A stretch of 64,000 nt of DNA, from the NCBI RefSeq assembly GCF_000336935.1, contig NZ_AOME01000013.1:60290-124289 (forward strand), read 5' to 3'. Position numbers and translations under genes: made by a program. The DNA is from Halococcus salifodinae DSM 8989. Lineage in GTDB: Archaea > Halobacteriota > Halobacteria > Halobacteriales > Halococcaceae. Below, in pieces: positions 19,740-21,761 of the stretch; position 1 is the stretch's first letter, and the number at the start of each line of letters is the position of its first letter. The notes under the pieces are model-generated. The model was not told where the DNA came from, did no database searches, and was given only the letters and a program-made list of their open reading frames with translations.

Positions 19740-20417
19740 CTACTCCGCGAACCCGCGCAGGATCGCCCGCCCGTCGGTGCCGCCGAGCTCGGGCAGGGTC
19801 GCACGCTCGGGATGGGGCATCAACACGGCAACGGACTCGCGCTCGCCGCACACGCCCGCCACCGCGTCCGTCGATCCGTTCGGGTTCGATTCCGGTGTCA
19901 CGTTCCCGTCGGCATCGCAGTACCGAAAGAGGACTCGATCCTCGCGATCGAGATCGGCGAGACGTTCCTCGCTGATCTCGAATCGGCCCTCGCCGTGGGC
20001 GATCGGGAGTTCGATCACCTCGCCCGGCTCGAAAGCCTGGGTCCACGGCGTGTCGGCGTTCTCGACCCGGAGGTGGACGTGCTCGCACTGGAAGCGCGCG
20101 CTCGCGTTGGTGGTGAACGCGCCGGGCGTGAGGCCCGTCTCGCAGCCGACCTGCGCGCCGTTGCAGATCCCAAGCACTGGCATGCCCCCGTTCGCGGCAT
20201 CACGGACGGCCTCCATGATCGGTGCGCGCCCGGCCATCGCGCCCGCCCGGAGGTAATCGCCGTACGAAAAGCCACCGGGAAGGACGATCCCCGAGGGGTT
20301 CTCGGGGAGTCCGTCCTCGTGCCACGTCCGCTCGGCGTCGATCTCAACATCCTGGAGCGCGCGAACCGCGTCGCGATCGCAGTTCGAGCCGCCGAACTGG
20401 ATGACCGAGACCGTCAT
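19740..20417 (-). CDS. purQ: Phosphoribosylformylglycinamidine synthase subunit PurQ
   Basis: Class I glutamine amidotransferase of 225 aa that supplies ammonia for FGAR to FGAM conversion in purine synthesis, working with PurS and the large subunit PurL (not in this window). The N-terminal VIQFGGSNCDRDAV is diagnostic. The nucleophile Cys is in VLGICNGAQVG, LPGGFSYGDYLRAGA precedes it, and the catalytic His-Glu pair is in MPHPERA near the C-terminus. The start at 20417 overlaps the purS stop (ATGA), so PurS and PurQ are co-translated. Confidence 0.96.
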   Translation of the reverse strand: MTVSVIQFGGSNCDRDAVRALQDVEIDAERTWHEDGLPENPSGIVLPGGFSYGDYLRAGAMAGRAPIMEAVRDAANGGMPVLGICNGAQVGCETGLTPGAFTTNASARFQCEHVHLRVENADTPWTQAFEPGEVIELPIAHGEGRFEISEERLADLDREDRVLFRYCDADGNVTPESNPNGSTDAVAGVCGERESVAVLMPHPERATLPELGGTDGRAILRGFAE

Positions 20418-20665
20418 CGCGACTCGACTTCCACGGTGTAGTCGTGGATGGTCGGATTGGCGAGCAGGCGTTCGGCCATCGCGTCGGCGCGCTCTGCGGC
20501 CGCATCTTCGCTCGCGGCGTCGAGATCGACCTCGAAACGATCGGCCGCGCGGAGCTCCTCCAGCTCGAACCCGAGGCGTTCGAGCGCGCGGGCGGTGGTC
20601 TCGGCCTCGGGATCGAGCACGCCCCGTTTCAGCCGCACGGTGACGACGGCGGTGTAGGCGGTCAT
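20414..20665 (-). CDS. purS: Phosphoribosylformylglycinamidine synthase subunit PurS
   Basis: Protein of 83 aa matching PurS, the small dimeric subunit that bridges PurL and PurQ: YTAVVTVRLKRGVLDPEAETT at the N-terminus, then ALERLGFELEELRAADRFEV and a C-terminal IHDYTVEVESR. Length is exactly that of the family. Its ATG at 20665 is about 35 nt from a GAAGGGTTTTCGCC element that also occurs, mirrored, upstream of purU, suggesting a shared bidirectional promoter. Confidence 0.95.
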   Translation of the reverse strand: MTAYTAVVTVRLKRGVLDPEAETTARALERLGFELEELRAADRFEVDLDAASEDAAAERADAMAERLLANPTIHDYTVEVESR

Positions 20666-20686: not shown

Positions 20687-20747
20687 GGCGAAAACCCTTC
20701 TGCATCGGTTCGGCCGCGAGTGCTGCTGCAAACGAAGGGTTTTCGCC
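20687..20747. promoter_or_regulatory. Symmetric divergent promoter: 14-bp perfect inverted repeat
   Basis: GGCGAAAACCCTTC at 20687-20700 and its exact complement GAAGGGTTTTCGCC at 20734-20747 flank 33 bp between purS (minus) and purU (plus). Each arm, read in the direction of its gene, starts 35-36 nt before an ATG (purS at 20665; the upstream frame at 20770), where haloarchaeal BRE/TATA elements lie for leaderless transcripts. The simplest reading is two identical core promoters facing outward; a dimeric regulator site is the alternative. Confidence 0.55.
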
Positions 20748-20769: not shown

Positions 20770-20802
20770 ATGAACACGACCGACACACAGTGGTGGCGAT
20801 GA
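20770..20802 (+). CDS. Possible 10-codon leader peptide before purU
   Basis: The ATG at 20770 opens a frame encoding MNTTDTQWWR. Its TGA (20800-20802) overlaps the purU ATG (20799-20801) in an ATGA junction. It begins 36 nt from the start of the putative promoter arm at 20734, so a leaderless transcript would begin at this codon. The tandem Trp codons just before the stop are reminiscent of attenuator leader peptides, but no hairpin follows, so translational coupling is the likelier role if any. Confidence 0.35.
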   Translation: MNTTDTQWWR

Positions 20803-21761
20803 ACCCACGACTCACCGAGATCACGGTGATCGGCGACGACGACACCGGCCTCATCGCTCGGATCACCTCGCTCCTCTTCGAGCGCGGCGTGAACATCGAG
20901 GACCTCGATCAGGCGGTTCGTCAGGACCTGTTCCGGATGACGATGCGGGTCGACACGAGCGAGATGGACGGCTCGAAGGACGACCTCCGCCGGGCGCTCG
21001 ACGACCTCTGCGAGGAGCTGGGAATGGACGTTCAGGTCCGATTCCCCGCCGATCGCGAGACGAGACAGGTCGCGGTGCTCGCCACGAAGGAATCACACTG
21101 CCTCGACGCGCTGTTCGACGCGTGGGAGACGGGCGATCCCGACGCCGAGATCGGGGTCGTAGTCGCGAACCACGACGACCTCGCGCCGATCGCCGAGGCT
21201 CACGACGTGCCGTTTTACGATGTCGGCGATGCGGGCGGCGTGCCCGACGAGGAGTGGTTGCTCGATGTCCTCGCCGATCACGACGTCGATCTCGTGGTGC
21301 TCGCGCGCTACATGCGCATCCTGAGTCCCAACGTGGTGTTTCGCTACGAGAGCCGCATCATCAACATCCATCCTTCCCTGTTGCCCGCCTTCCCCGGCGC
21401 GGAGCCGTACCGCCAGGCGCTCGACGCCGGGGTCCGGGTCGCGGGCGTCACCGCCCACTACGTCACGACCGACCTCGACCAGGGGCCGATCATCACCCAG
21501 CGCGCGTTCAACGTGCCCGACGACGCCACCGTCGCCGATCTCGAACGCCGCGGCCAGCCCCTCGAAGCCGAGGCGCTCGTCGAAGCGGTGCGGCTCCACC
21601 TCGAAGACGATCTCGTCGTCGGTCGAGGCCGAACCCACCTCCGCAACGGCGAGAACGCCGCCCTCGGGCTTCCCGACGAGATCGAACGACTAAACCCGGA
21701 TCGGCCGGTCGACGCGGAGACACCACCCGCCGGCGAACCGGCCGGAACGAGCGACGACTGA
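20799..21761 (+). CDS. purU: Formyltetrahydrofolate deformylase
   Basis: Protein of 320 aa: an N-terminal ACT domain (ITVIGDDDTGLIARITSLLFERGVNIEDLDQ, about 7-37) followed by a formyltransferase-like hydrolase domain. The catalytic Asn-His-Asp set is visible in IINIHPSLLPAFPG and AHYVTTDLDQGPIITQ. The enzyme releases formate from 10-formyl-THF, supplying formate for purine synthesis and balancing one-carbon pools. The ATG at 20799 was chosen at the ATGA overlap. It converges with purC, with 24 bp between the stops. Confidence 0.93.
   Translation: MNPRLTEITVIGDDDTGLIARITSLLFERGVNIEDLDQAVRQDLFRMTMRVDTSEMDGSKDDLRRALDDLCEELGMDVQVRFPADRETRQVAVLATKESHCLDALFDAWETGDPDAEIGVVVANHDDLAPIAEAHDVPFYDVGDAGGVPDEEWLLDVLADHDVDLVVLARYMRILSPNVVFRYESRIINIHPSLLPAFPGAEPYRQALDAGVRVAGVTAHYVTTDLDQGPIITQRAFNVPDDATVADLERRGQPLEAEALVEAVRLHLEDDLVVGRGRTHLRNGENAALGLPDEIERLNPDRPVDAETPPAGEPAGTSDD

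Follow-up and report, generated by a model that had tools for sequence, protein, structure and literature searches.

A mini-ORF overlapping the purU start codon in most haloarchaeal genera and its probable role in translation reinitiation

In a haloarchaeal genome of 4.2 Mb, a frame of ten codons with two adjacent Trp codons ends on the start codon of purU, which raises the question of what so short a frame does for the translation of the gene and whether its Trp codons matter. A sequence-only reading of the locus had proposed that purU is transcribed leaderlessly from the right-hand arm of a promoter repeat, the first codon being that of the short frame, that translation of purU depends on termination–reinitiation, and that the level of Trp-tRNA or the codon context could affect it. 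We compared the locus, which lies in a stretch of 64,000 nucleotides (the window), with purU leaders from across the class.

The intergenic region between purS and purU

In the window, purS and purQ run leftward and purU rightward from a common intergenic region, with the following features.

19740–20417, minus strand: purQ, downstream of purS (NCBIfam TIGR01737, 300 bits)
20414–20665, minus strand: purS, the divergent neighbour (NCBIfam TIGR00302, 81 bits, cutoff 39)
20689–20699, minus strand: left promoter arm, an identical box facing purS, recognized from the sequence
20735–20745, plus strand: right promoter arm AAGGGTTTTCG, candidate TATA-like box for the purU transcript, with TTTT from 20740
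20770–20802, plus strand: mini-ORF (upstream ORF) MNTTDTQWWR-stop, predicted to be translated leaderlessly on the basis of the sequence and of counterparts across genera
20790–20796, plus strand: GTGGTGG, a weak Shine–Dalgarno (SD)-like stretch within the mini-ORF and the source of both TGG (Trp) codons
20799–20802, plus strand: ATGA tetramer, the purU start overlapping the mini-ORF stop
20799–21761, plus strand: purU, formyltetrahydrofolate deformylase-like (ACT and formyl transferase domains), 320 aa

The nearest relatives of this purU among named records are haloarchaeal. In NCBIfam, its product matches PRK06027 with 251 bits (above the cutoff of 223) and TIGR00655 PurU with 243 bits (below the cutoff of 286). 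The mini-ORF reads ATG AAC ACG ACC GAC ACA CAG TGG TGG CGA TGA, and its TGA (20800–20802) shares bases with the purU ATG (20799–20801), giving a 4-nt overlap; on both the frame at 20770 and the overlap, the sequence-only reading was right to the base. The 3′ end of 16S rRNA, GGCTGGATCACCTCCT, found in the window's genome, is complementary to GGAGGTG, and the SD match to this consensus in the window is only 4 nt long (GGTG), 3 nt from the purU ATG.

The interval separating purS from purU contains a perfect 11-bp inverted repeat, CGAAAACCCTT at 20689–20699 and AAGGGTTTTCG at 20735–20745, both arms of which spell AAGGGTTTTCG when read towards their own gene. The TTTT of the right arm begins 30 nt 5′ of the mini-ORF ATG (20770), and that of the left arm, on the minus strand, 29 nt 5′ of the purS ATG (20665). 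The repeat is best read as two divergent TATA-like boxes at equal distance (29–30 nt) from the purS and mini-ORF ATGs, and purS itself, with TTTT 29 nt 5′ of its ATG, appears positioned for a leaderless start. Scanning the genome for the AACGAAGGGTTTTCG box (15 nt, at most 2 mismatches) returned 6 matches, only purU's own being exact, against 1 for the reversed control; on these counts, we rejected the box as a purine regulon motif.

Conservation of the frame and of its promoter spacing

We searched 391 genomes of the class for purU and found a purU-like match at 1e-60 in 332, from 74 of 86 genera. From these, 122 purU loci covering all 74 genera were drawn, and all counts rest on these 122 only; per-genus figures take one locus each, that with the lowest locus number within the genus. 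Seven loci whose match started late in the protein, and loci lacking a tblastn match at 1e-20, were set aside. The named loci L002–L017 stand outside the counts, and some of them duplicate leaders (L002/L040, L009/L054, and L016/L123). A strict rule asked for an uninterrupted ATG frame beginning 18 to 75 nt upstream and ending on a TGA that overlaps the purU start; a relaxed rule accepted mini-ORF stops as far as 14 nt upstream or 20 nt downstream of the purU start. A short frame ending on the purU-start TGA, whose conservation the sequence-only reading had named as a check, was present in 65 of the 74 genera under the strict rule (66 without the 18-nt minimum); the relaxed rule, with its shifted stops, admits 70. 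Over all loci with a start call, 105 of 121 carry the strict form, and 70 of 74 genera have an A directly after the purU start codon.

The frame itself is strongly biased. Leader ATGs located 10 to 75 nt upstream of purU, several per genus in places, are distributed 78:5:3 between the TGA frame and the other two. Among other leading genes, called in 344 kb and 120 kb of two genomes with our own crude gene caller, upstream ATGs fall evenly into the three frames (45:37:47 for the window's genome, 17:15:15 for the second). An overlap together with an upstream ATG was found at 13 of 213 and 3 of 81 of these genes; when a promoter box is also required, 2 of 212 and 2 of 81 pass, purU included. The box requirement was applied in a relaxed form, and the stricter TATA criterion that came first also fails purU's own box.

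Because the genera are related and their counts not independent, we added two checks. In a frame-blind pick, which takes the A/T box and then the first ATG 22 to 45 nt on, an ATG was found in 62 of 74 genera, mostly 29 to 33 nt after the start of the box, and the frames were again skewed (56:4:2). For the other check, distances from the small ATG to purU were mapped by parsimony onto one quick tree of the purU protein from 116 loci, which omits the second copies L032 and L033, L153 (no start found), L123, L111, and L148 and keeps the second copy L154; in this test, no leader ATG with an adequate box was available at 14 of the 116 loci. In 37 of 65 genera the distance measures 35 nt, and the others span 23 to 65 nt. 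The distance changed about 34 times on the tree, and about 27 of these changes are multiples of three (binomial against 1/3, 5e-8). A distance that varies, and varies by threes, implies that the frame was retained through many insertions and deletions. The peptides meanwhile diverge, from MNTTDTQWWR here to MYHGSRP and MSTHQGRWR in congeners, MDRHSLERRWQR-like sequences in family f4 and MFGLEQSEVTV-like ones in family f5, so that placement is kept across genera and the peptide is not. The arrangement is not due to chance, and these data suggest that selection maintains it across the class. The purU mini-ORF is a strongly conserved archaeal upstream ORF that could be detected by sequence alone.

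The promoter spacing is conserved along with the frame. Over 66 genus representatives aligned on the small ATG, A+T content reaches 71 to 80% at positions −30 to −27; the rest of the leader is mostly below 50%, with lesser peaks of 56 to 58% between −41 and −39 and of 64% at −11. A fixed rule recognizes the box in 52 of 65 genus representatives; across genera it sits 27 to 31 nt upstream of the small ATG. In Haloferax volcanii, leaderless transcripts make up 72% of protein-coding transcripts (PMC4983044). Taken with that proportion, the box spacing makes it likely that the purU transcript begins on the small ATG. The distance from box to ATG is kept while the length of the frame varies, and so is the ATGA or GTGA ending; in these respects, comparison favors the parts of the sequence-only reading that made the right arm the purU promoter, placed a leaderless first codon at 20770 and coupled the purU start to the mini-ORF stop.

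We consider it probable that ribosomes initiate leaderlessly on the mini-ORF and reach purU by termination–reinitiation. The purU mRNA would start at or next to the ATG at 20770, without a 5′ leader; a ribosome would initiate on this 5′-terminal ATG, translate ten codons and terminate at the TGA (20800–20802). The four-base overlap, usually helped by an SD inside the mini-ORF, would then hold the ribosome for a restart at the purU ATG (20799). The short SD match in the window's own genome, GGTG only, counts against this account. The role of the mini-ORF would be to deliver ribosomes to purU, its peptide not being the product that matters. In Haloferax, the translation of overlapping gene pairs is strictly coupled (PMC6728339), the SD aids reinitiation to a varying degree (PMC6728339, PMC3986360), and coupling requires an overlap or very short spacing, being nearly gone at about 20 nt (PMC10666635). 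For de novo initiation at 5′-UTRs, the SD of Haloferax volcanii is nonfunctional (PMC3986360, PMC6728339). Given an SD that is inert at 5′-UTRs and the coupling of overlapping pairs, a purU start that has an SD but does not itself stand at the 5′ terminus would probably be poorly served if it lacked an upstream frame, and the mini-ORF would supply the ribosomes. An upstream ORF of this kind would be useful where mRNAs are leaderless and the SD, as in the one species tested, fails to initiate at 5′-UTRs.

Several lineages depart from the common form. In the representatives of genera g11 and g83, the mini-ORF stop lies 8 to 13 nt inside purU. In g13 (L072 and L129), a 13-codon frame ends on TGATG and is followed by a second short frame, MRV-stop or MRA-stop, that runs into the ATGA of purU, an arrangement resembling a two-step relay. 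In g6 (L093 and L153), the small ATG and purU share one reading frame, so that PurU gains residues at its N terminus and the mini-ORF appears fused to the gene. The representatives of g71 and g72 lack an ATG mini-ORF, which another member of each possesses (L149 and L144), and the second purU copies L032, L033, and L154 lack the arrangement. The fusion in g6 and the g71 and g72 representatives imply that the mini-ORF is dispensable; judged by these natural variants, the arrangement would be useful, not indispensable. With their varied lengths, two SD phases, in-frame fusion and probable two-step relay, the purU leaders offer a natural setting in which termination–reinitiation could be tested.

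Trp codons, the embedded SD, and regulation

The best-conserved part of the mini-ORF is the SD block, GGAGGTG or a portion thereof, with a match of at least 5 nt in 52 of 65 genus representatives. Its spacing to purU falls into two main classes. Where the spacing is 6 or 3 nt, the final bases of the motif fall in a TGN codon, and 44 of 46 genera have Trp; where it is 5 or 8 nt, the motif reads Glu-Val, and 1 of 16 has Trp. The remaining 3 of 65 genera fit neither class. The large family f5 is mostly without Trp (3 of 14 have it). The base after GGTG follows the same phase: A, the best SD base at this position, occurs in 0 of 48 genera in the phase in which it would create a premature TGA, against 11 of 16 genera of the second phase; a further 10 of the 74 genera lack GGTG. 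The contrast rests on few evolutionary events because the second-phase genera belong mostly to one family. In place of A stands usually G, which can wobble-pair and gives TGG. The Trp codons thus look like a by-product of a GGTGG-type ribosome-binding motif read in one phase.

This bears directly on the proposal that Trp-tRNA affects purU, in which stalling at the tandem Trp codons would sense charged tRNA-Trp and alter purU translation. The tandem of the window recurs in the two closest congeners (MNVTDTRWWR and MDATDTRWWR), but congeners L025 (MYHGSRP-stop) and L026 (MSTHQGRWR-stop) lack it, and of the 65 genus representatives 7 carry tandem Trp and 47 at least one Trp. In that sample, we found no conservation of Trp independent of other signals; its presence tracks SD spacing. 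Folding of 65 leaders from the mini-ORF ATG to purU +45 gave no excess of RNA structure (mean z −0.02; 2 of 65 below −2), and we know of no pathway link between purU and Trp. We regard a Trp-responsive leader as highly improbable: Trp sensing was rejected on the SD phase and the lack of Trp conservation, and RNA structure on the missing folding excess. This part of the sequence-only reading found no support in the comparison, and tandem Trp codons in such leaders may be the shadow of an SD motif.

The same motif could be taken to mean that the frame is incidental, purU having an ordinary 5′-UTR in which only the SD and the promoter are conserved. A best-conserved SD block within an unconserved peptide fits this account, which nonetheless leaves unexplained the 78:5:3 frame bias, the length changes by multiples of three and the phase-dependent avoidance of A after GGTG, and places the SD where it is nonfunctional in Haloferax volcanii (PMC3986360); we consider it quite unlikely. 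The phase of the SD also weighs on whether purU starts further upstream, at GTG 20790 or 20793 or in a longer form from 20664, without a 4-nt overlap. Our gene caller chose GTG 20790, and the frame is open to 20664. Such a start seems very unlikely, since the residues preceding MNPRLTE are unconserved, the in-frame GTG depends on SD spacing and falls out of frame in spacing-5 genera, and 20664 is upstream of the promoter box.

Selection on the peptide was likewise rejected. In f4, the codons CTC GAG CGG AGG TGG are near-invariant at third positions, which suggests constraint at the nucleotide level and not on the peptide. The f4 purU leaders (for example, L042, L046, and L056) carry a conserved palindrome, CGCTCGAGCG, within the mini-ORF directly 5′ of GAGGTGG, and f5 leaders have CTCGAA at a similar place. 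The f4 palindrome may serve as a binding site or form a small hairpin.

Leaderless initiation followed by reinitiation admits a stronger form, not an exclusive rival, in which the coupling is regulated: the rate of reinitiation would depend on a protein, on a small RNA or on the ribosome pool's state, and purU would track one-carbon or purine status. The ancestral, class-wide upstream ORF would then be a control point at which cell state regulates the reinitiation yield after the leaderless mini-ORF, and that yield would set purU output because SD-led de novo initiation fails at 5′-UTRs. Retention across the class at one metabolic gene and the nucleotide-level conservation of the CGCTCGAGCG block before the SD in f4 speak for regulation; against it, no ligand, regulator or conserved fold was found (65 leaders folded), and an unrelated gene in f4 has the same architecture. 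We advance this form tentatively and hold it to be doubtful, and, if true, it would make the mini-ORF a deeply conserved archaeal upstream ORF with a regulatory role.

The unrelated gene is a DUF7343/MarR-like gene (L173, 13086–13436, minus strand, and relatives L212–L241), identified by weak Pfam matches, both below cutoff. In most of its f4 loci, a leaderless-type mini-ORF ends on GTGA. Overall, the arrangement occurs in 15 of 30 analyzed loci (1 of 31 lacked a start call), mostly in f4; outside f4, the gene itself is apparently leaderless directly in most families. Its mini-ORFs often contain Trp from the SD and, as read from the listing, obey the Trp and phase rule of purU. This appears to be an independent recurrence of the purU architecture. 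At L164 (18332–18997, plus strand), a gene that we take to be METTL5-like, for which Pfam yields methyltransferase domains only, has a mini-ORF MSVGYRRR-stop and a promoter box; its two closest congeners keep the arrangement, which is found in 4 of 30 analyzed loci overall (1 of 31 unanchored).

Relation to known leader and overlap systems

The trp leader attenuator has a short leader frame with tandem Trp codons. The purU mini-ORF of the window shares the tandem but differs in having neither Trp conservation, excess folding nor a Trp-related target, and no alternative hairpins or terminator were found from the mini-ORF ATG to purU +45 in the 65 leaders folded.

Closer parallels come from Haloferax volcanii. 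Its overlapping pairs (Huber et al. 2019, PMC6728339; Huber et al. 2023, PMC10666635) are described with a 4-nt overlap and an SD in the upstream frame, as at purU; their upstream partner is a normal gene, whereas that of purU is a mini-ORF, usually of 8 to 13 codons, with no evident protein role. Haloarchaeal termination–reinitiation is marked by an overlap of 4 or 1 nt, which purU has, and commonly but not essentially by an SD, which is also present; by analogy with these pairs, strict coupling would be expected at purU. The 5′-UTR uORFs of the same species (Babski et al. 2016, PMC4983044) are likewise small ORFs upstream of a haloarchaeal gene but, as 16 ORFs of 15 to 31 aa within UTRs of 150 to 250 nt, unlike the purU case; purU is absent from the uORFs in Table 2 of that article, and the term has no match in its main text.

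The nearest precedent is mycobacterial: leaderless small ORFs that end on RTGA and whose architecture is more conserved than their peptide (Shell et al. 2015, PMC4633059). Shared with purU, where the RTGA is the ATGA at 20799–20802, are the RTGA overlap and an unconserved peptide; the 5′-end position of the mycobacterial ORFs on a leaderless transcript is predicted for the purU mini-ORF, with a box spacing that agrees, and ribosome delivery has been proposed there as it is here; a 2025 review also gives it as a proposed function of short ORFs (PMC12548453). The mycobacterial cases are bacterial and supported by Ribo-seq, with conservation between two mycobacteria, whereas the purU case is archaeal and drawn from genome comparison; unlike them, it concerns one gene kept in most genera of a class, with TATA-box spacing and an SD phase constraint. 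The accessible portions of the literature searched on haloarchaeal purU, archaeal reinitiation, ribosome profiling and RTGA coupling yielded no earlier description of an upstream ORF at purU. Small leaderless ORFs with RTGA coupling are already known in mycobacteria, and the archaeal, class-wide case at purU appears to be new.
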